A stretch of 64,000 nucleotides of DNA from Branchiostoma floridae. Taxonomy: Eukaryota; Chordata; Leptocardii; Amphioxiformes; Branchiostomatidae. Shown here piece by piece: positions 225 to 57,935 of the stretch. The DNA lies in NCBI RefSeq assembly GCF_000003815.2, contig NC_049984.1:24399263-24463262 (forward strand), in the 5' to 3' direction. The position numbers and the translations under genes were made by a program. A model generated the notes under the pieces. It worked only from the letters and a program-made list of their open reading frames with translations. It searched no databases and was not told the origin of the DNA. Numbering within the stretch: position 1 is the stretch's first letter; every line of letters begins with the position of its first letter.

Positions 225-3200
225 TGCATAGTAAGGAATTGAAAGGTGAAAACCGCAAAATAGTCGAATGCTTCCTTTCCGAGATATTCTCGCGTATACG
301 TACCCTGTTTAGGCGCAACCGCTAGCTCCTTTTCTTGAGCCTGTCACTGCACCGGCTAGGGTGATGAGTTAATAACGCGATTGTAGCTTAGGCTTCAAGT
401 TCCGGCCTGGCACACTTGGTATGGTTGAAAATGTCCCATAGTAAAGAATTGAAAGGTGAAAACCGCAAAATAGTCGGATACTTCCTTCCCGAGATATTCT
501 CGAGTATACGGACCCTATTTAGGCGCAACCGCTAGCTCCTTTTCTCGAGCCTGTCTCGGCACCGGCTAGGGTGATGACTTAATAACGCTATGGTAGCTTA
601 GGGTTCAAGTTCCGGCCTGACACACTTGGTATGGTTGGAAAGGTCCCATAGTAAGAAATTGAAAGGTGAAAACCGCAAAATAGTTGGATACTTCCTTCCC
701 GAGATATTCTCGAGTATACGGACCCTATTTAGGCGCAACCGCAAGCTCCTTTTCTGGAGCCTGTCTCGGCACCGACTAGGGTGATGACTTAATAACGCTT
801 TTGTAGCTTAGGGTTCAAGTTCCGGCCTGGCACACTTGGTATGGTTGGAAAGGTTCCATAGTAAGGAACTAAAAAGTGAAAACCGCAAAATAGTCGGATA
901 CTTCCTTCCCGAGATATTCTCGAGTATACGGACCCTGTTTAGGCGCAACCGCTAGCTCCTTTTCTTGAGCCTGTCACGGCACCGGCTAGGGTGATGACTT
1001 AATAACGCGATTGTAGCTTAGGGTTCAAGTTCCGGCCTGGTACACTTGGTATGGTTGAAAATGTACCATAGTAAGGAATTGAAAGGTGAAAACCGCAAAA
1101 TAGTTGGATACTTCCTTCCCGAGATATTCTCGAGTATACGGACCCTGTTTAGCCTTTCGGGGCAACCGCTAGCTCCTTTTCTTGAGCCTGTCACGGCACC
1201 AGCTAAGGTAATGACTTAATAACGCGATTGTAGCTTAGGCTTCTAGTTCCGGCCTGGCACACTTGGTATGGTTGGAAAGGTCCCATAGTAAGAAATTGAA
1301 AGGTGAAAACCGCAAAATAGTTGGATACTTCCTTCCCGAGATATTCTCGAGTATATGGACCCTGTTTAGCCTTTCGGGGCATCCGCTAGCTCCTTTTCTT
1401 GAGCCTATCACGACCCCGGCTAGGGTGATGACTTATTAACGCGATTGTAGCTTAGGCTTCTAGTTCCGGCCTGGTACACTTGGTATGATTGGAAAGGTCC
1501 CATAGTAAGGAATTGAAAGGTGAAAACCGCAAAATAGTCGGATACTTCCTTCCCGAGATATTCTCGAGTATACGGACCCTATTTAGGCGCAACCGTTATC
1601 TCCTTTTCTGGAGCCTGTCACGGCACCGGCTAGGGTGATGACTTAATAACGCTATTGTAGCTTAGGGTTCAAGTTCCGGCCTGGCATACTTGGTATGGTT
1701 GAAAATGTCCCATAGTAAGGAATTGAAAGGTGAAAACCGCAAAATAGTCGGATACTTCCTTCCCGAGATATTCTCGAGTATACGGACCCTATTTAGGCGC
1801 AACCGTTATCTCCTTTTCTTTAGCCTGTCACGGCACCGGCTAGGGTGATGACTTAATAACGCTATGGTAGCTTAGGGTTCAAGTTCCGGCCTGGCACACT
1901 TGGTATGGTTGGAAAGGTTCTATAGTAAGGAATTGAAAAGTGAAAACCGCAAAATAGTTGGATACTTCCTTCCCGAGATATTCTCGAGTATACGGACCCT
2001 GTTTAGCCTTTCGGGGCAACCGCTAGCTCCTTTTCTTGAGCCTGTCACGGCACCAGCTAATGTAATGACTTATTAACGCGATTGTAGCTTAGGCTTCTAG
2101 TTCCGGCCTGGCACACTTGGTATGGTTGGAAAGGTCCCATAGTAAGAAATTGAAAGGTGAAAACCGCAAAATAGTTGGATACTTCCTTCCCGAGATATTC
2201 TCGAGTATATGGACCCTGTTTAGCCTTTCGGGGCATCCGCTAGCTCCTTTTCTTGAGCCTATCACGACCCCGGCTAGGGTGATGACTTATTAACGCGATT
2301 GTAGCTTAGGCTTCTAGTTCCGGCCTGGCACACTTGGTATGGTTGGAAAGGTCCCATAGTAAGGAATTGAAAGGTGAAAATTGCAAAATTGTCGGATACT
2401 TCCTTCCCGAGATATTCTTGAGTATACGGACACTGTTTAGGCGCAACCGCTAGCTCCTTTTCTGGAGCCTGTCACGGCACCGGCTAGGGTGATGACTTAA
2501 TAACGCTATTGTAGCTTAGGGTTCAAGTTCCGGCCTGGCACACTTGGTATGGTTGGAAAGGACCTATAGTAAGAAATTGAAAGCTGAAAACCGCAAAAAA
2601 GTCGGATACTTCCTTCCCGAGATATTCTCGAGTATACGGACCCTATTTAGGCGCAACCGCTAGCTCCTTTTCTTGAGCCCGTCACGACACCGGCTAGGGT
2701 GATGACTTAATAACACGATTGTAGCTTAGGGTTCAAGTTCCGGCCTGGCACGCTTGGTATGGTTGGAAAGGTTCCATAGTAAGGAATTGAAAGGTGAAAA
2801 TTGCAAAATTGTCGGATACTTCCTTTCCGAGATATTCTTGAGTACAGGGCCCTGTTTAGGCGCAACCGCGCGCTAGCTCCTTTTCTTGAGCCTGTCACTG
2901 CACCGGCTAGGGTGATGACTTAATAACGCTATTGTAGCTTAGGGTTCAAGTTCCGGCCTGGCACACTTGGGAAGGTCTCATAGTAAGGAATTGAAAGTTG
3001 AAAACCGCAAAATAGTCGGATACTTCCTTCCCGAGATATTCTCGAGTATACGGACCCTGTTTAGCCTTTCGGGGCAACCGCTAGCTCCTTTTCTTGAGCC
3101 TGTCACGACACCGGCTAGGGTGATGACTTAATAACGCGATTGTAGCTTAGAGTTCAAGTTCCGGCCTGGTACACTTGGTATGGTTGAAAATGTCCCATAG

Positions 3201-3858
3201 TAAGGAATTGAAAGGTGAAACCGCAAAATAGTTGGATACTTCCTTCCCGAGATATTCTCGAGTATATGGACCCTGTTTAGGGGCAACCGCTAGCTCTTTT
3301 TCTTGAGCCTGTCACGGCACCGGCTAGGGTGATGACTTAATAACGCGATTGTAGCTTAGGCTTCAAGTTCCGGCCTGGCACACTTGGTATGGTTAAAAAG
3401 GTCCGAAAGTAAGGAATTGAAGGGTCAAAACTGCAAAATAGTCGGATACTTCCTTGCCGAGATATTCTTGAGTATACGGACTCTGTTTAGGCGCAACCGC
3501 TAGCTCCTTTTCTTGAGCCTGTCACGGCACCGGCTAGCTATAGGGTGATGACTTAATAACCCGATTGTAGCTTAGGGTTCAAGTTCCGGCCTGGCACACT
3601 TGGTATGGTTGGAAAGGTCCCATAGTTAGAAATCGGAAGTGGAAAACCGCAAAATAGTTTGATACTTTATTCCCGAGATATTCTTGAGTATACGGACACT
3701 GTTTAGGCGCAACCGCTAGCTCCTTTTCTTGAGCCTGTCACGGTACCGGCTAGGGTTATGTAGCTTAGGGTTCAAGTTCCGGCCTGGCACACTTGGCATG
3801 GTTGGAAAGGTCCCATAGTAAGAAATCGGAAGATGAAAACCGCAAAATAGTCGTATCC
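225..3858. repeat. Tandem satellite, ~210 bp monomer, about 18 copies
   Basis: The anchor catagtaaggaattgaaagg recurs near 225, 436, 646, 857, 1067, 1284, 1500, 1711, 1921, 2138, 2355, 2565, 2774, 2972, 3197, 3402, 3621 and 3815. The basic period is 210 bp. A longer variant of ~217 bp carries an 8-bp insertion (cctttcgg) near 1153, 1370, 2007, 2222 and 3067. Each unit holds a short palindrome, cgagatattctcg, and the invariant block gttcaagttccggcctgg. Copies differ at scattered sites, and the last copies (3621 onward) are the most diverged. No copy has an open frame conserved across units. This looks like an ordinary satellite or large minisatellite; a function is not visible. Confidence 0.95.
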
Positions 3859-4130
3859 CTGTCGCTGAACACTACACACATAAGCTAGCATACCTGTCCT
3901 TGTTGCTGAACACCATCCACACACAGGTAAACCACTTGTCCCTGGCGCTCAACATCATAGACCCGAATTACCAAAATACCTGTCCTTGGTGCTAAACACC
4001 ACCCACACACTGGTAAACAAACTTGTCCCTGGCGCTCAACACCATACACCTTCATTACCAAAATACCTGTCCTTGGTGCTGAATATCATCCACACAGGAA
4101 AACAGACTTGTCCCTGGCACTCAATAACAT
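3850..4130. repeat. Short tandem repeat, ~87 bp dimer of two ~43 bp halves
   Basis: The phrase acctgtccttggtgct recurs at 3892, 3978 and 4065 (period 86-87). It alternates with the related half cttgtccctggcgctcaaca. The array starts directly where the 210-bp satellite stops and is interrupted by the mariner insertion at 4130. Bases after the transposon (5427 onward, cacctcagtg) may continue a degenerate unit. Confidence 0.85.
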
Positions 4131-4131
4131 A

Positions 4132-5424
4132 CGAGGGGCGTGCAATAAGTAATGGTCCTGACCAACTTCCAGTTGTCTGATCTACATGAAATTTTGCATG
4201 TGTAATGATTTATATCTCTATGGGTTATGTTGCAAAATACAGCTGTGAACTAATTGTGGTTACTGATTTACATGTGTTTGAACTGAGTCAGAAGTAAAAT
4301 GGAGCCAGTTGAGTGTCGCGCAGTGATCCGGTTTTTGTATTTGAAAGGACGCACACCAAAGGAGACTTTTGATGAAATGAAAGAAACGTATGGTGATGAT
4401 GTCCCATCATATGGCCTTGTAAAACGCTGGCATCGTGAGTTCAAACATGGCCGGAAATCTGTGGAAACAGCTCCCAGACCTGGTCGTCCCTGTTCTGCCA
4501 TTGATGAGTCATCTGTCCGTCAAGTTGAGGCAGCCATTTTGGAAGATCGTCGCATTACTGTTCGCCAAATAGCCCAAGAGGTCAAGATTAGTACAGGGTC
4601 TGTGGAAACTATCATTCATAAGCATTTGCATATGCAAAAGGTGTCTGCCAGATGGATTCCCAGGTTGCTGACACCTTTCCAGAAGCAAGAACGCGTCGAG
4701 TGCTCGAGGATGAATTTGGAGATGTGCCAAGAAGATGAGTCAAACTTTTTCAAAAGACTGATTACACAGGATGAAACTTGGGTCCATCACTATGATCCAG
4801 AGACCAAAGCCCAGTCAAAGCAGTGGAAGCACTCGGACTCACCACCTCCAAAGAAGGCAAGGGTGCAGCCCTCTGCTGGCAAGGTCATGCTCACAGTCTT
4901 CTGGGACCAGGACGGAGTGGTGATGACAGATTTCCTAGCAAAGGGTACCACAATTACAGGGGCCTACTACGCTTCACTTTTGACGAAATTAAGGGAAGCT
5001 ATCAAAATCAAGAGGCGGGGCAAGATAAGCAAAGGTATCCTCCTCCTGCAGGACAACGCTCCGGTCCACAACTCGCATGTCGCCAGATCAGAAGCACGGG
5101 CGTGTGGCTATGAAATCCTCCCCCATCCCCCTTACTCTCCTGACCTTGCACCCTCTGACTTTCATCTCTTCCCAGCCATGAAGTTGTTTTTGAAAGGAAA
5201 GCGTTTCCAAGATGATGCAGCCTTGATTTCTGAAGTTACGACGTGGTTGGAGGACCAACCTAGGGTGTTCTACAAAAACGGTGTCCAGAGCTGCATCAAA
5301 CGATGGGAGAAATGCATAACTCTGGGTGGTTCCTATGTAGAAAAGGACTAACAACTGTGCTAAGTTTAATGAATCTCCTACTATGGGAAATGGGTCAGGA
5401 CCATTACTTATTGCACGCCCCTCG
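4132..5424 (+). mobile_element. Mariner (Tc1/mariner, DD34D) transposon, apparently full length
   Basis: The element is 1293 bp. Its first 32 bases (4132-4163, starting cgaggggcgtgcaataag) are a perfect inverted match to its last 32 (5393-5424). It is flanked by TA on both sides (4130-4131 and 5425-5426), the target duplication of this superfamily. One uninterrupted transposase frame fills the centre. It lies in the 43/87-bp tandem repeat. Perfect terminal repeats plus an intact frame point to a young insertion; whether it is still active cannot be told from sequence. Confidence 0.97.
4299..5351 (+). CDS. Mariner transposase, 350 aa, intact
   Basis: This is a cut-and-paste transposase expected to bind the element's 32-bp ends in the nucleus and catalyse excision and TA-targeted insertion. 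Residues ~1-120 form the paired helix-turn-helix DNA-binding region, ending in a GRP linker (GRPCSAIDE) and a second HTH (VRQIAQEVKISTGSVE). A diverged version of the family WVPHEL motif reads WIPRLLT. The catalytic triad is visible: D in QDETWVHHYDPETK, D in LLQDNAPVH and D in YSPDLAPSDFHLF. The spacing between the second and third Asp is exactly 34 residues, which defines mariner DD34D. Length (350 aa) is normal for the family (~340-350). The ATG at 4299 is the first in frame and gives the usual short N-terminus. There are no stops or frameshifts. It has no host role that I can see. Confidence 0.96.
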   Translation: MEPVECRAVIRFLYLKGRTPKETFDEMKETYGDDVPSYGLVKRWHREFKHGRKSVETAPRPGRPCSAIDESSVRQVEAAILEDRRITVRQIAQEVKISTGSVETIIHKHLHMQKVSARWIPRLLTPFQKQERVECSRMNLEMCQEDESNFFKRLITQDETWVHHYDPETKAQSKQWKHSDSPPPKKARVQPSAGKVMLTVFWDQDGVVMTDFLAKGTTITGAYYASLLTKLREAIKIKRRGKISKGILLLQDNAPVHNSHVARSEARACGYEILPHPPYSPDLAPSDFHLFPAMKLFLKGKRFQDDAALISEVTTWLEDQPRVFYKNGVQSCIKRWEKCITLGGSYVEKD

Positions 5425-5426
5425 TA

Positions 5427-27300: not shown

Positions 27301-27611
27301 ATTGTCATATATACATATGGCAAACGTACACAGTACCAATACAGTACTTACACTTACAGTGCATTTAATAGTAAATAATAGGTTATACAACATAACTTTA
27401 ACTACAATTTAAATTCAAGAACACCGATGTACTAGTACCTGAGTACTGTACAAGTTACTTGAATAGACCCTTGTGGTATTCCATATATACAAACCTGTGG
27501 CTCTCCTGGTACGAACTCCAGACATGTCTGACACCCCTCCATGGTCTCTTTGGGCAGCAGGGGCCGACAACGTAGTGCCACACGGACGGGGATAGCCTTG
27601 TCTTCAGGCAT
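6388..27611 (-). CDS. KIF4: Chromosome-associated kinesin KIF4, complete, 29 coding exons
   Basis: KIF4 is a plus-end-directed kinesin-4 motor. In vertebrates it binds chromosome arms and the anaphase midzone, where it works with condensin and PRC1 and limits microtubule growth. I joined 29 exons with GT-AG borders and consistent phases into a 1215-residue protein (human KIF4A is 1232). Exons in transcript order: 27495-27611, 27152-27269, 26383-26573, 25404-25487, 24816-24982, 24109-24203, 23499-23618, 22810-22985, 22414-22469, 21514-21574, 21077-21154, 20597-20655, 20155-20260, 19770-19826, 19216-19392, 17031-17131, 16374-16518, 15774-15884, 15177-15260, 14744-14860, 14341-14439, 12752-12900, 11983-12112, 11275-11445, 10605-10718, 9845-9922, 8127-8231, 7343-7555, 6388-6756. 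The start, [18 protein letters not shown], aligns with the vertebrate N-terminus. The family's C-terminal cysteine-rich domain was not found. Confidence 0.96.
6432..6470 (-). other. KIF4: C-terminal basic cluster of KIF4
   Basis: The minus-strand frame reads [15 protein letters not shown] near the end of exon 29. Together with the RRRR cluster in exon 28 it gives the tail strong positive charge, as expected for a nuclear, chromatin-associated motor. Confidence 0.6.
7707..7844. mobile_element. Small foldback element (138 bp) in KIF4 intron 27
   Basis: The left end catgaggaaattaagaaatg is an imperfect inverted match to the right end (reverse complement catgagcgaattaaggaatg). About 30 bp pair, followed by looser pairing. 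There are no coding signs. A 16-bp piece of the same end (aattaaggaatgggtt) recurs at about 25382-25397, next to the exon 4 donor, suggesting other fragments of this family. Confidence 0.7.
8553..9491. mobile_element. Non-autonomous mariner-like element (939 bp), KIF4 intron 26
   Basis: Both ends begin cgagNgtgcttcaaaaagta and are inverted repeats for at least 85 bp with a few mismatches. Looser inverted homology continues inward (around 8660-8730 against 9310-9400). It is flanked by TA at 8551-8552 and 9492-9493. No transposase frame remains. The end sequence is of mariner type but differs from the intact mariner at 4132, so it belongs to another subfamily. Confidence 0.9.
9492..9678. mobile_element. 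Pogo/Tigger-like MITE, copy 1
   Basis: It starts tacagtagaagcc and ends ggcttttactgta, with TA at the outer edges. It contains the family phrases ataactgcacacttct and gtgcaattaaacggctttta. Related copies are at 36177, 51283, 57795 and a fragment at about 27940. The CAGT...GAAGCC ends with TA targets resemble Tigger/pogo termini. It abuts the mariner-like element at 8553-9491, sharing its TA. Confidence 0.8.
10056..10266. mobile_element. MITE with TAAGGCCTAG-type ends, copy 1 (KIF4 intron 25)
   Basis: The left end taggcctaggaaaaa pairs with the right end tataggcctta. Internal phrases ccctacctaccctac and accgaccctaattttttt are shared with copies at 23009-23466 and 33271-33762. No coding capacity. 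Confidence 0.65.
12458..12479. repeat. (GGT)n microsatellite in KIF4 intron 22
   Basis: A short run of ggt/gtg triplets lies in the intron between exons 22 and 23. No function seen. Confidence 0.8.
13845..14265. mobile_element. Foldback element, 'gtcatacc / gttgtattcta' family, copy 1
   Basis: The unit starts near tatgtcatacctgtgacg, contains cgttcgatacgggtgttccgg and ends gtgttgtattctatatatat. Its middle is a GC-rich palindrome (cccgcgggtcggatc against gatccgacccgcggg at about 14164-14205). Shorter relatives are at 34483-34770, 40096-40215 and 58418-58575. It lies in KIF4 intron 21. No open frame of interest. Confidence 0.75.
14956..14979. repeat. (CTAGTA)n microsatellite in KIF4 intron 19
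   Basis: Short tandem ctagta units in an intron. No function inferred. Confidence 0.8.
15905..16225. repeat. KIF4: CCAAT-containing 31-bp minisatellite in KIF4 intron 17
   Basis: CCAAT occurs at 15910, 15940, 15971, 16002, 16033, 16084, 16119, 16150 and 16212. Most are spaced 30-31 bp, all in the same orientation, often as aaccaatcagagacagc. The units between are diverged. The core is the NF-Y recognition type and matches the CCAAT box in the presumptive KIF4 promoter (31171-31185). It lies between exons 17 and 18. Confidence 0.85.
17627..19131. mobile_element. CAGGG...CCCTG element, long copy (1505 bp) in KIF4 intron 15
   Basis: It begins cagggctccagactaac and ends tcgcagtcacgagccctg, with a perfect 5-bp target duplication caagg (17622-17626 and 19132-19136). 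Subterminal regions repeat gtcgca and gcgcacc motifs. The internal open frames are short; one at 18113-18310 (minus) is cysteine-rich but not recognised. Probably a non-autonomous element of the same superfamily as the copies at 21944, 25971, 36044, 38136, 39103 and 50375. Confidence 0.85.
19493..19661. mobile_element. Degenerate hAT-like MITE (cf. 53315-53624), inverted
   Basis: The phrase ggtcaatcagaatttcatgc and the end gcctggctaaaagctgg match, in reverse, the element at 53315-53624. The outer end is diverged and no clear target duplication is visible. It lies in KIF4 intron 14. Confidence 0.5.
20865..21059. mobile_element. CAGGG...CCCTG superfamily, 'acttgcccg' subfamily, partial
   Basis: The right end gtggacttgtctaaccctg matches the element at 50375-50784. 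Internal phrases include acttgccccgggtaattggg. The left border is poorly defined. It lies in KIF4 intron 11. Confidence 0.5.
21234..21442. mobile_element. MITE, 'ctgtaaatgcattt' family, copy 1 (KIF4 intron 10)
   Basis: The right end aaatgcatttacagta and internal gcg(a/g)ac-rich phrases such as gtgaacttaaaaccactgcg are shared with copies at 24592, 35116, 42874 and 44777. The ends pair as an imperfect inverted repeat. No coding capacity. Confidence 0.75.
21944..22304. mobile_element. CAGGG...CCCTG element, 'gtgcaccca' subfamily, copy 1
   Basis: It starts cagggctcgaaatactggg and ends aatttcgagccctg. Many copies of gtgcaccca face each other near both ends. The near-target duplication is ccatg/tcatg. 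It is 361 bp, in KIF4 intron 9. The same subfamily is at 38136-38483 in the opposite orientation. Confidence 0.88.
23009..23466. mobile_element. MITE with TAAGGCCTAG-type ends, copy 2 (KIF4 intron 7)
   Basis: The left end taaggcctagaaag pairs with the right end cctaggcctta. Internal ttccctacctaccctatg and accgaccctaattttttag match copies at 10056 and 33271. Confidence 0.75.
23640..23890. mobile_element. Degenerate 'acttgcccg' subfamily element (KIF4 intron 6)
   Basis: The phrases gtccattggcccagggcaaa and ttcgggcaagcagatttt resemble 50375-50784. Ends are not clear. Confidence 0.4.
24592..24803. mobile_element. MITE, 'ctgtaaatgcattt' family, copy 2 (KIF4 intron 5)
   Basis: It contains the family phrases tgcggtggtttaaag, ggtggccgcttcaccgcg and accgcgaacttaaaacc, inside diverged tactgtgtaaatg and cttaattgcatttgg ends. 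Confidence 0.65.
25695..25949 (-). mobile_element. tRNA-derived SINE-like element (KIF4 intron 3)
   Basis: Read on the minus strand, a tRNA-like head has an A-box-like tagctcaactgg (25928-25939) and a B-box-like ggttcaatcct (25850-25860). A body containing taaaatgaggagatgcctca (about 25780-25803) follows. The A-to-B spacing (~70 bp) is longer than in a standard tRNA. Family not identified; a degenerate tRNA pseudogene is the alternative. Confidence 0.5.
25971..26340. mobile_element. CAGGG...CCCTG element, 'ttgcaattttgcatgt' subfamily
   Basis: It starts cagggttcgaaatacac and ends agtatttcgatccctg, flanked by cacact on both sides (25965-25970 and 26341-26346). Subterminal ttgca words are repeated. 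It is 370 bp, in KIF4 intron 3. Confidence 0.85.
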
Positions 27612-27652
27612 GGCGGGACGGACAGATTCAGAACCACACACTAGATCTCAAC
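27612..27652 (-). other. KIF4: 5' UTR part of the first coding KIF4 exon
   Basis: A good 3' splice site (minus: ttactgcag/gttgag) places the exon border at 27652. The KIF4 ATG exon is therefore preceded by at least one non-coding exon farther upstream; the candidate is at 30987. Confidence 0.7.
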
Positions 27653-27687
27653 CTGCAGTAACAATAATACTAATAGTAATACAGTCA

Positions 27688-27790
27688 GGGCAGCAGGGGC
27701 CGACATCGTAGCGCCACGCGGACGGGGATAGCCTTGTCTTCAGGCATGTCTTCAGATTCACAACCACACACTCTAGAGTAGATCTCAACA
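27688..27790 (-). pseudogene. Partial tandem duplicate of KIF4 first coding exon
   Basis: It repeats 27552-27650 with a period of 136 bp. Its frame (ATG at 27745-27747) encodes the same first 20 residues, [20 protein letters not shown], followed at once by TGA. Only three bases differ across the 60 coding bases, all synonymous third positions. There is no splice donor, so it cannot replace exon 1. It lies in the 5' UTR intron, upstream of the real start. Confidence 0.85.
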
Positions 27791-27939
27791 ACTTCTAAAC
27801 AATAATACAGTCAGATTAACAAATCTTATATGGTATACTTATATGGGAACCCCAACTGATGAGAGCAAAACAAAAGTTGCCTGCATCATTCATTCATTGT
27901 TGATTTTTAGCACGCATTTTCACTCAATTTGTAGACGAT

Positions 27940-27998
27940 GTTTGACAAATTTGACCGAAGTGTGCGCTTATTCGATTTGAAATTAACTGGCTTCTACT
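27940..27998. mobile_element. Fragment of pogo-like MITE split by the 2.2-kb element
   Basis: The phrases ccgaagtgtgcgcttattcg and attaactggcttctact match the right end of the MITE at 51283-51460. The MITE end is interrupted after ...ggcttctact and resumes as actgta at 30201. Confidence 0.75.
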
Positions 27999-30200
27999 CG
28001 GCTACTTCACAATCTAATGTACCAAAAGGGGGTCACTAGGGGTGAAAATTCAACTCCATTTTATTCTTTTTTTGTTGTTAGCAGTTCAAAGGTACACACC
28101 TTGCGCTTACTATCCTGAAGGATCTCCGCACAACGAGCTTTTATAACTTCGGTACATGTGCTTTTATAAATGGATCACTAAGGGGGTACGGACGCTACAA
28201 CTGTAGAATTACTGGAACTGCAGCATACTGTATACTCAACATTAGAACAGAAAATGGGTGTTTTATCCTTATCTTCTTGTATAATTAGCATTTGCTATGC
28301 TAGAAAATCAAACTCAGTTGCAGTATGACTATGTTAGGTCATTTTCTGGTCATCTGTTACTAAAGCAGCTATAATGATATGCGGGTATTTTGGCTTGAAG
28401 CAAAGATCAAATACTATAATTCTTAATCCAGGCACCATAGTAGCTAAATTTTGGTGGTTATCTATCCTAATTGGGCTTCTACATAAAATTACAACAGATA
28501 TAGTGTATAACATAACATAGAATCTTTCATATGACCATTAATGAACATTTCAAGGGGGGTACGGACGCTACACAATGATAGTAAAGACTGGTAGTGAACA
28601 ATGGAATTAGCCCACTAAACATGTCCATTTTCTAATAATCATTAACTATTTATTTTTTTATTTATTTATTTATTTGTCAGCTGTTTACAAACAGCCAGCC
28701 CACTAAACATGTCTATTTTCTAATAATCATTAACTATTTGTTAATTGAAGCATCCATTAATGCTACTGCAGCAGTTTAACAAAGAAAATGAGAATATAAA
28801 TATGCCAGTTGAGATTCCACCCAGTTGGATCTGTACTCTACTTTTTGATAACAGGCCTACTGATAGAAGATTTTACAGAATCTGTGATAAAGAAGTGATG
28901 GTTTACATAAAAGAATATAACACAGTGCTTCCCATGCCATCAAACCAGCAATGTACAGTGTATACTTGCATCTTTCTTGAATACATGCTATGTATATATT
29001 GGTTTGGACAAGAGAAACAATAGTGCAGGGGGTACGGACGCTACACATTACATACTATGTAATACTATGTTAAATTTATGCCTTGTATAATGTAGATCTA
29101 CCAAACTGGTGTTCTTATATCAGCTTAACTCATGGGGGAATATCAAATATCATCTCACATCCATCTTTGGCTGCTTTGGAATGAACCATTTATGAAGTCT
29201 GAGGGGGTGTAGCAAATGTGGATTTGTGGAGGAAATCTCAGAAAAATGCAGCTCAAATTCATTGAAAAGTCACATTTTTAGAGAAAAAAGTTAACCAATC
29301 ATATCTGTAAGAACTGTAATTAATGTATTGAATCAGAATTGTAGCAGTTGGACAACAATTTTAACAGCATTTTGCTAAAAAGCTTCAAATGGGGGTACGG
29401 ACGCTACAGGTGGGGGTACGGACGCTACAGGGGGTACGGACGCTACATTTTGATGTTTACGGTGCTATACTAGACAGAGTTTTCAGGACAGCAATGGTTT
29501 AAAGGGTGTTCTAGTATGTGGTAATAGAGACCTCTAAACTGTCATAATCACAAGCTTGTGGGATTTACTTAGTACAGAAATTGAAGGGGGTACGGACGCT
29601 ACAGATTTTTTTCGGAAAATGACATCCTGGACTTTGCTTGTAAATAATATGTCATAAGAGTGTGCTACTGATCTTATTCTACTTCTGACCTTATACACAC
29701 ACAATACCTTACTTTTACATACAAAGACAACACCAATATTACCAAACAATTAGCTGCTACAGACTACAGATATATCCAGTTAAAATAACATTGGAATCTG
29801 TCAACATGTGGGTAAAATGGAAAAATAGTCCCTAATGGAACCAAAAAATGGTCATGTCCTTCAAAAAAAGCATAAAATCACTAGTAGTCACATGACCGCA
29901 TATCAAAAGCAAGTGGTTTCTAACTACCAACTACAATTTTTTTGTTAGATCTGAGGTTTAAGAATTAGTAAAAACTGAATGGTCCCCGATAACGCTTAAA
30001 ATTGGGCATTTTAAGGTTATATTTTGGTCAATATTTTCGCCAAATATTGACCGATTTACAAAATTCTTTTTGTGACATGTTCCTTGTTGTACCAGGTTTT
30101 GGGAAATGAATTTATAAAACAGCTATAGGCTGTGTATCTTTTGCTATCAACTGATAACATGTCAGAAAGAAAATGGGTACATTAGATTGTGAAGTAGCCG
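27999..30200. mobile_element. 2.2-kb non-autonomous transposon with seven internal 18-bp repeats
   Basis: The first 25 bases (cggctacttcacaatctaat...) are a perfect inverted repeat of the last 25 (30176-30200). The trinucleotide act flanks both sides (27996-27998 and 30201-30203), a 3-bp target duplication. Removing the element restores the end of a pogo-like MITE (ggcttct-act-gta). Inside, gggggtacggacgctaca occurs perfectly seven times, all in one orientation: 28182, 28555, 29028, 29391, 29412, 29430 and 29586. A 43-bp phrase (agcccactaaacatgt...) is also duplicated at ~28608 and ~28696. No coding frame over ~100 codons is present. The 3-bp duplication plus internal motif repeats suggest an En/Spm (CACTA)-type derivative, but the ends are not CACTA, so the superfamily is open. 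Confidence 0.85.
28655..28678. repeat. (TTTA)n tract within the 2.2-kb element
   Basis: Run of tttatttatttattt units. It is flanked by the duplicated agcccactaaacatgt phrase. Confidence 0.75.
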
Positions 30201-30203
30201 ACT

Positions 30204-35300: not shown

Positions 35301-38300
35301 AAACCACCGCGAACATTTCTGCATTTACAGTATCTAGCTTTGGGCTTTGTTTAGGGAGTCCCTTGGATAGGCTGTTAAATGGTCCAGGAGGTACAGTGTC
35401 TGAGGACACTTATTGATTCTAGTGTAAGTGGATCAACATCTGTCTGGATATGCAGCTTGTACTCTTCAGAGTTCAATACAAATTCATAACTTGTATGAAG
35501 CGATTTTTTACTTTTCATAAAACTGTGGTCCCATATCCGTACTCCACTTTCCCATGACAATAGACCAATTTAATTTGTTGGTTCACAGATTTTCAAAACT
35601 TAAAAAAATATGCTTAACTGGAAAAACACCTTAAAAACAAAGCCTGAGGACCTGAGTGTATGCCTCATATTCAAGTTTTCCGACCTCCTAGCATTTATTA
35701 TGATGTCTGCTTGCTATATTTTCACTTTTAAAAAGATCCATGAACCACCAAGTGAATATTGGTGTGTATAAGTTACCTTTATCAACACATGTAAGTTTGG
35801 AAATGAGTGAAGGACTACCTTTATCAACATCTTGTGTGAGTTTGGAATGAGTGAAGGACTGGGAGTGTAAATGTTGCAAATACTGATAGCAAGTTTTCCT
35901 AACACTGGCAAGGACATGCTTCCTTGTGTTTGGTTGGGACCAACAAGGCCATGCAGATGTAGGGACTCGATTAGAGGACACAAATGTAGCTCCTGATATT
36001 CTACAATGATTCAAGGCTGCTTGAATTCTTTTGGGCATACTTACAGGGCTTGAAATACATGTACCACCTGCATAGGTAAAATTGCAGCTTTGCAGGTAAT
36101 TTTGGTGTCTACCTGCACCTAACCTGCACTGGTCCAAGTACTGGGTTTTATACATAAATGTGCTATCATGTAGGTGTACAGTAGAAGCCTGTTAATTGCA
36201 CAACGGATTAACGCACACTTCTGTTAACTGCACGGATTATTAAGCGGCTTCTACTGTATATGGATTGTTGTTAGCTGCATTGACTGTTAGCACCTATAAA
36301 GTATAAAAGAAAAAATAGCAAAATTGGTTCCTGAACAATTTTAGTATGATCCATACTTCCTGAATTCAGAGTGGTGCAGGTAAAATTTGTCTGGTGCAGG
36401 TAATTTTCAATGTTACCTGCACCAGTGCAGATATGCAGAAAAAAGGATTTCGAGCCCTGAAGTAGCATAAGAACACACATGGGTGAAGAGTGGGTGTTTT
36501 TTTTTGGGGGGGGGGAGAAAAGTGCCATAGTATACCAGTAAAATTGATCCAATGAAAAACTGTCTATACATATGAAACAGATAGCAATAGATCTGCATGA
36601 TAGCATCAGCATGCTTGATGATGAGATGCGCATAATCTTGGGGCTTGGATTTTTTCATCCACAAAATTGCAAGTTTCAAGGTCTGTTACCTGTTACCAGA
36701 CTCCAACTGTTGTATGCAAATTACGTATGGAATGTTCTAGATAATCTCCAATCTTACCGTATTGCAATCAGGGTTCTCCCCAGAATTTTTAAATTCTAGT
36801 ACAGTGACTGGCGTAAGAATAGATAACCAAAACCAACGCGCTGAGCTTTCATGAAAATGGGTAATTTTGCAATGACAGAGGGTGTCAAATACTACAAGTA
36901 TGATATATTATAATGATTCCTTTGTTCTGAAGTGGCAAAACGACTATCATTTTCATCATCGCCCATTTGCAAGTTTTTTGCAGACAATACCGCCAGGAAA
37001 AGTGACACTATTTGGCACAAAAATCAGTGAATTTTTATTAATTTTAGCAAAAGTAACCAAGAAAATAGGGAAGAAACTAAATTTCAGAAGTAGTATATGG
37101 GAGCTGAGCTAGGAGTATAGTGGAGGGCCTCCGTTATTTACATCCTCTGGGGAGGACTCTGGTACTATTGAAGGAACTTCTTGATAATTTCTTCGTTCCC
37201 ACACCAAATTGTGTATCAGGAAGTTCACATCTTTGTAGCCCTGGGCCACACAACTTTTGTGCCATCACTGGTACTGATGTGCGTTCAACTACCATACTGA
37301 ATTCTAAACGCTTAGTGCTAAGTAGAGAACTATACATGTACTATTTTTTAAGTCGTTGGCATGACTCGGTCGGGGATTGAACTCATGACCTATATACTGA
37401 CTGCAAGGCGAACACTCAATCCACTTGACCATTGCACTGGTAATTGTAGTCTGTTAAATCTCTGACTGAGCAGTTTGTATTTGTTCAAATTATTTTCCCC
37501 AGTATCTCAACACCATTTAGGAGCAGGCCTTTTAATTTAGTAAGGTGTCAATACTTCCTTGGGCATCATTGTATGGTATCATCTGACCTAGCCATGTTAT
37601 TGGTTCAACTTGGTAGACACACTCAAGCCGGATTTGACTGGATGAAACCAGCTCAGTTTTATTGTACACAACCGGTAGAAAAAAATGCATACAAGGCACG
37701 CAAATCAAGGAAAAAGACATAGCAATTTTCCTTTGCATCTGCCAGAAGGTTTTTATGCACATGTAAAGGAATGAAATTAGCCTATGTTCAGGGGAGGGCC
37801 CAGTGACCTACATTTTAAATGTTTGTTTATTGTCCCATAAATGCTAATTAGACCCCCTGGCAGAGTTTACACATGCAAATTAAAAGATTTCACACAAAAA
37901 AAAGGTGTATATAAATATATTTCTGATACCCATCTCTACCATTCTTGGTACTGAAAAACATTGAGATGTGTGGCCACCCCTAAACCTTAGTGGATGGATA
38001 CAACAATGCATGTCCATCAATTTGATGGATTTATCGTAATGAACACCCAGCACGTTGTCAGTATCTGTCCTGAAATCTAGTGTTATTACACAGGTTTAAT
38101 GAATGGGTTAAGTGTTTCTATGTCAATTACACATACATGGCTCGAAATTCATTTTTGGGATTAGGTGCACTGGTGCACCCAGCTTAAAAAATTGGGTACA
38201 CCAAAAAATTTTGGGGTGCACCACTTAAATTTAAGTAATAACCTAATAATAAAACTTAATTACAAGCTATCAAATTCTTAAAGAAGCACCATGACAGACA

Positions 38301-40661
38301 TTTTTATTATCTTTCTAACACTTAGATGTCAAGAATATGATGTATACGTATACTTTGATATCTTTACATACATAAACCTAAGAATATATCTAGGTGCACC
38401 CTGTGCACCCAGAAAATAATTGGGTGCACAGCTCCAATTCTAGGTGCACCTGGGTATACATGCACCCAGTATTTCGAGCCCTGACATATGACCACATTTG
38501 AGGTGTTCAAAATTCCTTTTTTCCTTGATTTATCGTAGAGTGAAACTTGTTACTGTATAGCTGGTATATTATATGCAAAATGGCAGTTATACTGGATATA
38601 CATTTAAAGATATAAATATCACGAGCAAATGGATTGATATGAAAGCAGTCTATACAATATTCTTAAGGACAAATTAAGTGATAATCAATTCATGAATATA
38701 ATGCAGTATAATTTCTGCACCAAGCTGCCTTTTTCATTTCTTTGATTTTTTCAGATTATTCGCGAAAAATCGTATGCAAATCCCCAGTCCAAAAACCTGG
38801 TCCCGAAGTGGGACTGAACTTTTGACTTTGGGCCTGGAACAACTAGATTTACTAGTAGCAGTATTTTGTCAAACTGGCCCTAAGAAATATTGATAAATGC
38901 TCTAGCAATATTAGAATGGACAGAAGTAGGTCATGCTTATCCAACTGTATGTCCTGAATTGTGTTGTAGAATAATGCTTCATTTATAAATCTCGTTAAGA
39001 ATCTTGATTAAAATATTCCTGCCCGAAGGGACTAAATGGTTTCATCATTCTACTTCAGTACTTGTCTGATTATAAAATATATACTCTTACATGTAAATAC
39101 AGCAGGGCTCAAAATACATTTTTCTGCATACCTACACAAATTTTAACTGCACCACTCTGAATTTAGGAAGTATGGATCATACTAAAATTGTTGAGGAACC
39201 ATTGCTATTTTTTTTTTCTTTTATACCTAATAGGTGGTAACAGTCAATGCAGCTAATACCAATCCACATACACCTACACCGTAGGACATTTATGTATAAA
39301 ACTCAGTACATGGACCAGTGCAGGTTAGGTGCAGGTAGACACCAGAAATACCTGCACGACTCCAACTTTACCTGCACTAACCTGCATATGCAGGTAGTAT
39401 TTCGAGCCCTGTACAGGCATCACTGTCTCTCCTAGTATTACTACAGCTGTCTGTTCCAGGACAGAAACTTGCTTGTGGGAACAGACAAAAATTCTATCCC
39501 ATCAACCAATTAAATCCGATTTTCTTGACATGGATTGGAAATATATCTTTGTAAGCTTAAAATGACAACAAAACATTGGTTTCCAATTGCCATCTGAATA
39601 ATTTTTTTGTTTGTCTTGGAACGTTTCCATCATTCTAAATTCTGTTAATGATCCCTTCTTTTCCCAAATGATGAATAAATGTGTACAGGCCTTGTGCAGT
39701 ACATAGAGGTTATATTTTTACACTATACGCTTTTTTGATTTTATACAGATTTCACAGACTTTGTGGAGCAAAAAAGACTAGAAAGGCTTGTATTTGCTTA
39801 TGAGCAAATTCAGCAATTTCCTCTTCACCCTCCTCCTTAGATTTACAGATGTTGATGAACATGTTTGTGGAACTCTTGTTGTTGTTTTTTCAGGACCAGT
39901 TGACGTTTGGGGACTTCACAACTGGCCTGAGTGCAGAAGAACACAGCCGAGTATGTGGCATCCTCAGGGCACAGTCACCCAACAAGAGAGTGGAGGTACA
40001 GATCATCTGCATAGATTGATTCAAACATACTTCTTTTGTTTGCATTGCTGTTTCCAGATTTTTATTTGATTGATGTTGAATTCTTTTGTTTGAAGACACC
40101 AACTTCTGGCGCATTTTGCATTGAAATATGTGTTTTATTTGGGTGGGTATGACAAGAATAAAAAGCAATAAAGTGTATTCCACACCACCCTCGGTCCCAG
40201 CTCTCTTGTCGGTCTAATTACAGTATTGTATTTTACGTGTACAACAAGAGTGCAGACATAGCTTCGTAGTACTACCTTTTTTGCTCGTACTGTAGGGTTT
40301 CAGTAAAATTGTATACATCTGTTTTGTTTTAATGAAATATTCATTTCTCCCTACCAGTTACCCTGGGAAGAGCAGCGCAGAATCCTTACAGCAGCCGCAC
40401 CTGCGCCCACAGGTATGGTTTTTGTATGAAACCTTATTATTTTTGGTATAAGAAGGTTATGTGTGTGCCTGTGTGTAAGAATGAACTTTATTGCACGACA
40501 TTTGCACATGGTACAAAGTATGGCAACGAATATTACACAAAGTACAAAGATAGGTATAAAGAATAAGTCTTAACATCCTAAATAACATAATGAGGGCTAA
40601 CACAAGTCTTTGATATAAGATAACAATGGAGTTGGGCTAATCATTAATTTCATTATTAAGT

Positions 40662-49700: not shown

Positions 49701-52700
49701 GCTTTTAATGTCATTTAGCAAGCAATTTTGGACAATGTCAATGATGTTTAATGTCTGTCATTTACTACCAACTACCTACTATGTCTTGTGTCTTATCTAC
49801 TGTTTCAAAGGCACCAAAGTTCCAAAAAGATGTATTTTGTACATGTCACAGTACTCCATGGGTGGCTCTGACATCGCATTGAAGTCATAGTTTCTACATT
49901 TTGAAAATCATGTAATTGTAGTGATACTGATGTATGCACTGTTGACTTTGTACCCGCTTTTCCAGTCTTCCACTGTTTGCTGTGATAAACGTTTGTTTGT
50001 TTGTTTGTTTGTTTGTTAGGGTCGGCAGGAGGATGCAGAAGAGTTTCTGTCCTGCGTGCTGAACGGCATCCATGAAGAGATGCAGGTGGCCATGAAGATG
50101 GCACAGAAAGGTATTAATTTCTTTTCCTGCTTTAACTATTTTTCCTATCCCCCTCATTGTTTTGAAGCCTACAACTTGTTAAAATAAAATTGAGCAATTC
50201 TGTCATTTCATCAACTTCATGGCATGAAGTTCAGATTTTGGGAATGAATAGTGTTAACTATTTGTCCATCCCAACCACCAAATTTCAGTCCCACGAAAGA
50301 TGGACAGGTCCTGGAGACAGCCTGTCCTGTACAAAAAGAATATACACAGCAAGGAGTAGTTCATTATCCCCTGACAGGGATAAACAAGTCCATTAGCCCG
50401 ATTGTCCCGGACAAGTAAAAGTGCTGTTCGGGCAAGCAAAAGTACTTCCCCACTTGCCCGACGGGCAAGTAAGAATTTCCAGATGTGACCCGCTCAAATT
50501 ATCACTGAGTGTGACAGCACATGGGGCTGAATGTCTGCCTATATTGACCATGTCATTTTTAAGCCAGTAGAGACATCGATTTTGTTGTTGTTGCTGTCCT
50601 CGTTTAACGTCTTATTATTTTGCTAGACGTGGTCTCTTAACAAAAATGAAAATTTATGAAAGTGAAAACACATAGAAAAATGTAATTGAAATTTCGGGCA
50701 AGTGAAAATTTGGTTTGGGCAAGTAAATTTCTAATGTACTTGCCCGATAGGACAAGTGAATTTTTGAAAACTTGTCTAACCCTGCCCTGAGGAAAGTTTG
50801 GCTGTCTGACACAGTGGAAAAGAATTTGCAAGTCTTTTGGTACATCAGAATAGTGAATCATAGTCTTACCAAGGAATTGCTTCTGTTGATAAGCCCAAGA
50901 TGAATACGGAGTTGACACATAAGTGTGACAACCTAGTGAGAAATGTATATGATTGTACATGTGTGTTATATTTGCAGTTCAGTGTTTAAGTTTTGTAATG
51001 GTGTAGGGTGATTGTAGTTCTCCCAGTTTAGTTAAGAAACTGTTCTTGTCCGCTCCAGATAACCAGCCCAAGATGAACGGCGAGTTGACGCCAAAGTCTG
51101 ACGGTCCCTCCTCCCCCACCCCCCGGGAGGACGGAGCGGTGGAGGGGTTCATGATGGAACAGGAAGAGGGCGATGAGGACGAGTGGGAACAAGTGGGACC
51201 AAAGAACAAGTCCACTGTCACACGGACTGTAAGTTCTCATTTCTCTTTGTTTCTCTCTAAGGCCATGTTGATTTGATTATAATACAGTGGAAGCCGGATA
51301 ATTGCACACCCAATTTGGCAGCGAATCCCGTGCAATTATCCGGTGTGTGCGATAATGCGAAGTTACCCAGTTGGACCGCACCGCCACAGGATTTTGGGAT
51401 TCCGTGCAATTGACCGAAGTGTGCGTTTATCCGACGTGCAATTAAATGGCTTCCACTGTATTTATAAGGATGACATCCACGCGCTCAACAATTTTGGGCT
51501 GTTTCCAAAAATTAAAAAAAGTTTTCAAACATACTGTAAGTCGTAACGTCACAAAACAGCTTCAAAATAGGCAAATATATGCCATGGATTGCAAAACAAA
51601 TAAGTTCAACCTTCCTGACCACCTAGATTTTCATAATGAAGGCAACTCTTGTTTGGTCAAACATATTTGCACACTCGCATCAGCCCGGCAGCACATTCCA
51701 CTCTTTTATGGTACATAGAAAAAAAGTTTTAAGCCCCTTCTGACCTCGCTTTGTCCTTTGAACTTTAGACCACAATGCATCACACTGAAGTAGCTTTAGT
51801 AAGGAGGCAAAATTTGAAACCCTTTTACACAGTGAGTTGTGTCATTTCAGTGATCGCTAAGTATTTATTAACTGTTTGTTTAACATTTACCTACTTTTGG
51901 TGCTACCGGTATCTAAGTGTATTAGATTTTCATTATTTGTGTCTCTCCTGTGCACAGGCCAACTTTGTCAGGACCCCAGTATCGGACATCTTTGGTGGCC
52001 AGCTGCGCTCCATCTTTCACCAGCACGGCACCCGAGAGTCGGCCACCTTGCAGCCCTTCTTCACACTGCAGCTGGACATCCAGGTTGGTTTGTTGCTTCC
52101 GTGTATAGAGGTTTTGTTTTTTGCAAATCTGGATGATTGTGTTCCTTTTTGCTTTCTGGATGTGTGTGTTAAAGTTTATATTTGAGTACACTGTCCGAAG
52201 TGTGGCAAGAAGTGATTTGGAAGATAGAGCTGCGACAAAAGTTAGGCTTGGGGGGATGGCACTGGAGTTAAGAAATACACCTTTCTCACGCGGCGGCCAT
52301 GATAGATCTAAAACGAGTTCAATGTGGCAAACAAAAGGCTGTCCATCATAATTAGCGGTTCGACCAATGGTAGCCTGCCAATTAGGAAATTGACCAATAA
52401 GTGAATGGCTGCAAATTCGTTAAAAATTTGCATTATTATGTTTTTATTTTGCATCTCTTAATGGACTATGGGGTCGGTCTACACTACTCTAAATTGCTAC
52501 ATTTTTCGGTGCATAATACTTCTTGTAATATTTATTATTCCTTCTTATATCATGAAAATTTGTGTGGTTTGGGGAAAAACTAAATGGGACCTGATTTTAG
52601 AAATAAGTTTTGACTGTTTGCCTCATTGACCTCTTCTTGGATCTATCATGGCCGCCGCGTGAGAAAGGTGTATAGTGGAACCAGTTGTATATCAGACATT

Positions 52701-57794: not shown

Positions 57795-57935
57795 TACAGA
57801 AGAAACCAGTTAATTGCACAACGGATAACTGCACACCTCTGTTAATTGCATGGATTCCCAAAGTCCAGTAGCAATGCAGTCCAGCTGAATAACTTTTCTT
57901 TTTTGCACCATCCGCATAATTGCATAAAATGAACT
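57795..57935. mobile_element. Pogo/Tigger-like MITE, copy 4, right end lost
   Basis: tacagaagaaaccagttaat, ggataactgcacacctctgt and gcagtccagctgaataactt match 9492-9678. The right terminus is diverged. Confidence 0.7.

Follow-up and report, generated by a model that had tools for sequence, protein, structure and literature searches.

Lockstep difference between two sister transposon families in an array of dispersed 18-bp motifs in Branchiostoma floridae

Introduction

Several kinds of mobile or self-maintaining DNA carry short repeated sites for a dedicated protein. CACTA (En/Spm) elements, which end in CACTA/CAC, have 12-bp sites for TnpA, and iteron or EBNA1-site arrays are comparable runs of same-direction repeats. 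Among elements with 3-bp target-site duplications (TSDs), PIF/Harbinger transposons have a TWA-type duplication. Proteins may also bind transposons to silence them, and in vertebrates KRAB zinc-finger proteins repress transposons. In non-autonomous CACTA elements, short repeats near the ends hold the cis sequences required for transposition, as described in an excerpt of PMC8978399; an excerpt of PMC10045372 gives TSDs of 3 or 4 bp for AcademX DNA transposons and of 3 bp for Zator transposons.

Here, we describe an element with seven identical 18-bp motifs that lies in a 64,000-nucleotide stretch of the Branchiostoma floridae genome (hereafter the window; C6:24399263-24463262 in the host assembly of 513,431,437 bases and 431 contigs). 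Terminal inverted repeats (TIRs) and a TSD of near-constant length were both observed, as in class II non-autonomous elements. With CACTA elements it shares TIRs, a 3-bp TSD (here with 4-bp exceptions) and short repeats; however, CACTA repeats are closely spaced, subterminal, and both direct and inverted, whereas those studied here are internal and run in one direction. The termini, CGGCTAC in the family of the window copy (family A) and CGGCTGT in a sister family (family B), argue against CACTA, and PIF/Harbinger was rejected on its TSDs, which include ACT, TGT, ACA, CAA, AGT and CAG besides TAA and TTA. Compared by TSD length alone, the A copies resemble AcademX transposons with their 3- or 4-bp duplications; by the same single measure they resemble Zator transposons with 3 bp, but 4-bp TSDs occur in families A and B too. 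Our verdict is that an element of ordinary class, a non-autonomous TIR transposon, carries an extraordinary feature, a dispersed array of motifs that look like binding sites and evolve as one unit.

Results

The window element and its motifs

A first-pass annotation of the window had proposed an element with perfect 25-bp inverted ends and a 3-bp ACT duplication, and both were confirmed by the sequence and by three empty sites (Table 1). When the flanks of the element were joined with one ACT, they aligned without gaps across the junction to three MITE copies, and these ungapped empty-site alignments to MITE paralogs prove the boundaries and the insertion of the element. The inverted ends are perfect over 25 bp, and a chance T/A pair just outside them brings the match to 26 bp. 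The greater length of the window copy, against about 2.1 kb elsewhere, is due to an 88-bp internal duplication that it alone carries among the 18 copies compared and that gives rise to the 46-bp direct repeat of Table 1. Of the other 17 copies, 16 have the duplicated unit a single time and in L021 it falls below the cut-off, whereas the window copy has it two times.

Table 1. Coordinates, in window numbering, of the element and of the features within and beside it.
Feature	Position	Strand	Comment
Family-A non-autonomous TIR transposon	27999..30200	+	2202 bp, without conserved reading frame
Left terminal inverted repeat	27999..28023	+	CGGCTACTTCACAATCTAATGTACC
Right terminal inverted repeat	30176..30200	-	exact match to left
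Target-site duplication ACT, left	27996..27998		
Target-site duplication ACT, right	30201..30203		
MITE end	27951..27998		insertion target of the element
Other copies of the interrupted MITE	36177-36227; 51410-51463; 57795-57845		empty sites, same window
46-bp direct repeat	28609..28742	+	copies 88 bp apart, at 28609/28697
Motif 1	28182..28199	+	common to family B
Motif 2	28555..28572	+	common to family B
Motif 3	29028..29045	+	absent in family B; most variable family-A site
Motif 4	29391..29408	+	common to family B
Motif 5	29412..29429	+	common to family B
Motif 6	29430..29447	+	common to family B, there one G fewer
Motif 7	29586..29603	+	common to family B

All seven 18-mers reported earlier were found where they had been placed, exact and on the + strand. 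No further 18-mer was present in the window at up to 3 mismatches (0.01 expected), and the element itself contained no motif copy with 1–5 mismatches. The DNA between the motifs had been called unrelated, which is largely so; the left flanks nevertheless lie slightly above chance (motif-flank column score of 45 on the left and 42 on the right, against a random mean of 38.5 and a 95% point of 43). A common reading phase was considered and rejected: six of the seven motifs share one, but three of those six form a single tandem cluster. The array is not subterminal, nor is it symmetric; its motifs occupy positions 184–1510 of about 2106, and the last ~600 bp have none. Outside the motifs, the CpG observed/expected ratio of the element is 0.24, compared to 0.56 in the rest of the window, and the seven motifs contain 14 of its 28 CpGs, all intact. 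Many of the motif differences in older copies are C-to-T or G-to-A transitions at these motif CpGs.

A kinesin-like gene on the - strand has the element on its 5′ side; its first coding exon runs from about 27611, and a second, truncated copy of that exon from about 27747. The distance between the element's left end and a KIF4-like start codon is ~250 bp for the truncated exon copy and ~390 bp for the other. The kinesin identity of the gene was read from sequence motifs and from a Pfam hit to kinesin that is weak and falls below the cut-off (E 0.006), and the name KIF4 comes from the first-pass annotation, which had also set the element between two divergent promoters, of KIF4 and USP10. On one side, the kinesin-like gene fits that claim; on the other, the only USP10 landmark found was a USP10-like His box at 54434 (+), named by eye. 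Other features of the window were recorded in passing: (i) at 27552-27808 the kinesin first coding exon is tandemly duplicated, and the copy proximal to the element has an early stop; (ii) a 1.3-kb segment at 4130-5426, presumably a mariner-like element, has 34-bp perfect inverted ends, TACGAGGGGCGTGCAATAAGTAATGG; (iii) a tandem array at 227-3853 comprises 17.2 copies of a 210-bp repeat; and (iv) nested inverted repeats at 36103-39344, whose perfect arms include ones of 34, 28 and 19 bp, likely form one long inverted-repeat element.

Family A is homogeneous and low-copy

The exact 18-mer occurs 154 times in the host assembly, and a backwards control occurs 0 times. The motif could have been a common unrelated repeat, but all 154 copies, counted in the window and in fetched loci, fall in family A or its older relatives; L036, L048 and L054, which belong to the older relatives, contain a single copy apiece. 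Fifteen loci came from hits to the motif, seven (L025-L031) from the list of exact TIR matches, four from TIR matches with up to 3 mismatches, 13 + 2 from DNA searches and five from a search with the B TIR. The A-TIR search itself, at up to 3 mismatches, gave 48 sites genome-wide.

Eighteen A copies, the window copy included, were cut end to end and measure 2086–2202 bp (L023 and L029 contain 394 and 100 N). TSDs were 3 bp in 16 of them and 4 bp in two (L010 and L014); the 3-bp TSD of L019 is ambiguous, as this copy is set within a GT repeat. Three interrupted A copies have TSDs of 3, 3 and 4 bp. Thus, in keeping with the first-pass annotation, other copies share the same ends, mostly with 3-bp duplications, and carry the same motif at the same places. 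Pairwise identity outside the motifs ranges from 93.8 to 98.8% (mean 96.5%). Family A consists of discrete insertions with TSDs and is homogeneous and low-copy.

A sister family carries the same array with a different motif

The left part of the A element also retrieved relatives at 67–69% identity, and these proved to be complete 2.1-kb elements with a TIR of their own, CGGCTGTTTCACAATTGAGTGTACC (family B). A genome search with this TIR gave 62 sites, which by manual count belong to 28 B loci (53 sites), contig C200 (8, see below) and an old A relative, L055 (1). Eleven of the 28 loci were fetched (L037-L042, L044-L046, L049 and L053), together with L043, which the B-TIR search had missed owing to its trimmed ends. 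Nine B rows were analysed, the interrupted L049 and L053 being left out and L042 dropped because its flanks are identical to those of L041, making them one duplicated locus. L041 and L042 (C5 19.16 Mb, -, and 16.46 Mb, +) share more than 2 kb of identical flanks in opposite orientation, which indicates either a recent inverted duplication or an assembly duplicate. In L043 the outer 7 bases are missing symmetrically from both TIRs, as if trimmed. B TSDs were 3 bp in seven of the nine copies (one of them the trimmed-end L043), 4 bp in one and absent in one.

Outside the motifs, the majority sequences of A and B are identical at 1148 of 1919 aligned positions (~60%), and the families are separated by 0.33+0.36 = 0.69 substitutions per column with 100/100 support. 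Conservation is best in the left ~500 and right ~800 bp, and the middle can barely be aligned. Yet family B retains a motif, GGGGGTACGGACGGGACA in its majority form, at six of the seven A positions and with similar spacing: with positions taken from the second G, the B motifs lie at 184, 555, 1317, 1339, 1356 and 1513, and the A motifs at 185, 558, 936, 1299, 1320, 1338 and 1494. At the six shared sites, N cells aside, letters 14 and 15 are C14T15 in 18 of 18 A rows and G14G15 in 9 of 9 B rows, and positions 2–13 and 16–18 are the same in both majorities. The exact 17-mer is present at 51 of 54 motif sites in B and at 114 of 126 in A. Among the fetched loci, the exact B motif never occurs in an A locus, nor the exact A motif in a B locus.

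The comparison also disposes of a proposed echo between the cgctac of the motif and the terminal cggctac: B ends in CGGCTGT and its motif reads CGGGACA, so the two have changed differently. Further A/B-identical blocks occur at A positions 340 and 1515 of the majority alignment, for example GTCATTTTCTGGTCAT and TTTTTCGGAAAATGACA; these two blocks partly match one another in inverted orientation.

The motifs are constrained in both families

In family A, where 15 loci had been found through the motif itself and are slightly biased towards intact motifs, variant cells number 11 of 2103 in the motifs versus 666 of 33396 elsewhere; in family B they number 3 of 909 versus 816 of 17007. Random blocks would be expected to contain 40.7 variants in A (11 observed) and 43.6 in B (3 observed), and equal numbers of random blocks were as invariant as the motifs in 6 of 10000 draws for A and in 0 of 10000 for B. 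Private variants, those seen in a single copy, are also rare in the motifs: 4 versus 17.0 expected in A (3 of 10000 draws) and 3 versus 10.8 expected in B (53 of 10000 draws). An earlier A run, made with a different filter, found 4 private variants (mean 18.1) and 11 in total (mean 40.1), counts reached in 0 and 3 of 5000 draws, respectively. In the seven loci from the TIR list, 44 of 46 detected motif sites are exact, one of these loci (L029) having its 100-base N run where further motif sites would fall. In six old degenerate copies, motif differences number 19 of 343 versus 660 of 6688 elsewhere (Fisher p 0.006); some protection of the motifs is thus visible there, weaker than in A and B.

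The first-pass annotation had left the choice between spread by conversion and selection for protein-binding sites. These counts favour selection, with a binding site as its likely object, over mere recent spread. The weaker constraint in old copies is expected if selection acts only while the lineage is mobile, and our reading is that selection acts while the lineage moves and stops once a copy dies. The rarity of private variants argues against simple selection for mobility, under which copies should lose protection once they have inserted for the last time, and so does the protection that remains in old copies; either the private variants arose mostly while the lineages moved, or something else, such as conversion or a lower mutation rate, helps to keep the motifs intact.

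Could copying alone account for the pattern? Gene conversion, template switching or micro-duplication would keep the motifs identical and would have spread one B variant to six sites, in keeping with the perfect identity within the window element, the sharp 18-bp edges, the same two-letter difference everywhere and the scarcity of private variants; the tandem cluster of motifs 4–6 indicates, moreover, that local duplication does happen. Conversion tracts, however, should carry flanking bases with them, but the flanks differ between sites. The flanks of sites 1, 4–6 and 7 are recognisably alike in A and B, so those sites were not re-inserted, and the weaker constraint in old copies also speaks against a copying process. 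On balance we regard this explanation as unlikely and favour selection on binding sites.

Neither coding capacity nor an autonomous partner was found

The longest candidate for a coding remnant in the window element, a 92-aa frame at 28745-29023, matched nothing in Pfam up to E 1 and had a single PDB hit, at E 1.1. Its 112-aa counterpart in the A majority is not preserved in B, short A–B matches fall in frames of both strands, and no reading frame is common to A and B. A structured RNA was likewise rejected: no Rfam match was obtained up to E 1, and neither a single motif nor the motif cluster folds better than shuffled sequences.

A longer autonomous copy with a transposase, which the first-pass annotation had proposed to look for, was sought in the host assembly with the A and B TIRs at up to 3 mismatches, and none was found. 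A relaxed TIR pattern gave 97 sites, each of A or B type as read from the list, and the TIR searches revealed neither a third family nor a longer copy that codes. In the longer copies that were examined, the inserts lack a long frame; several other copies contain N stretches. Two of the longer copies had at first looked like partners: L026, a 3.36-kb A copy, owes its extra DNA to an insert that appears by eye to be MITE-like and TA-flanked, with a longest frame of 113 aa, and in L053, a 3.3-kb B copy, the longest listed frame of the insert has 86 residues. L049, another B copy, reaches 4.6 kb through a 2.5-kb insert, with listed frames of up to 93 aa, and L036, a 5.0-kb A relative on C139, is in pieces, with frames of up to 141 aa in its L034 part. 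This reading left out a 3.36-kb B pair (C9:19094530-19097885) and L025, a 5.6-kb A copy with a 2595-base N stretch. Beyond the host assembly, the genome_contigs collection contained no paired-motif array, the viral_contigs collection contained neither 18-mer nor TIR, and none of six motif or TIR strings was found in the literature searched.

Repeats of 18 bp that all point one way, set among other conserved blocks of a non-coding sequence, would also suit an iteron-like function, serving to replicate, tether or maintain the element as an extrachromosomal copy. We hold this to be very improbable: integration with clean TSDs needs no extrachromosomal stage.

TIR-like sequences at zinc-finger genes

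The TIR-like sites on contig C200 match the B TIR with 2–3 mismatches, and four of the eight were examined. Three of these four lie beside zinc-finger reading frames, with the TIR-like sequence at the 5′ ends. The first frame has 530 residues and 15 fingers (Pfam C2H2 families), the second has 5 fingers in the fetched part and the third is broken by one stop; at the fourth site the same 5′ sequence leads into an N run, without a visible finger frame. The shared piece is ~40 bp long and, at the two sites of L050, matches the right end of the B copy L040 with 90% and 87% identity. There was no second TIR in L050 and no motif in L050-L052. The zinc-finger genes are thus tied to the transposon by sequence, a lead rather than a proof. 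Poly-C2H2 genes tied to transposons in this way recall the KRAB-zinc-finger/transposon pairs of vertebrates; here, however, what connects the two is a TIR-like stretch with which the genes begin at their 5′ ends.

The motifs might be bound by a C2H2 zinc-finger protein of the host that represses or regulates the transposon. The C200 frames would fit such a role, as would the length of the motif, since 18 bp correspond to six zinc-finger triplets and the A/B difference falls inside one of them (GCT/GGG); the one-triplet fit holds in two of three registers and is therefore weak. Moreover, a transposon under repression would be selected for lost or variable sites rather than invariant ones, and constraint is lower in old copies. 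We therefore rate host regulation as quite unlikely. It is also doubtful, to much the same extent, that the motif is a putative poly-C2H2 target in which the A/B split arose through a shift in the triplet preferred by one finger, the six dispersed sites following in lockstep and the C200 genes being descendants of the transposon or captured partners. If true, transposon mobility would depend on a rapidly evolving zinc-finger address code.

Discussion

What reads the motifs? The motifs are constrained in both families and differ in lockstep between them. While ~40% of the other aligned positions differ, six scattered sites keep 16 of 18 letters and change the other two identically. This lockstep change suggests that one DNA-binding protein reads all six sites and that its preference shifted. 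Judging from sequence comparison, the motifs are most likely cis-acting binding sites of one mobility protein that co-evolved with them, and we consider it fairly probable that the element as a whole is a non-autonomous cut-and-paste transposon whose motifs are putative sites of such a protein.

How would such a system work? The insertions point to mobilisation, which would occur in trans through the 25-bp inverted ends. The six or seven same-direction motifs would be bound by one sequence-specific protein, either the transposase or an accessory protein of a lost or unseen autonomous partner, and this binding would be required in cis for continued movement. A change in the specificity of the protein may then have driven the parallel substitutions at six sites. 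We infer the protein as reader, its role in mobility and the specificity shift as driver from the constraint and the lockstep difference taken together.

Outside the motifs, conservation between the families of the leftmost ~500 and rightmost ~800 bp, in an element that does not code, raises the question of what else is under selection. The A and B motifs, set side by side, provide an exact probe for finding the predicted protein. More generally, two sister families in one genome constitute a natural experiment on the co-evolution of a transposon and a DNA-binding protein, and they raise the question of how many separate sites can switch together.
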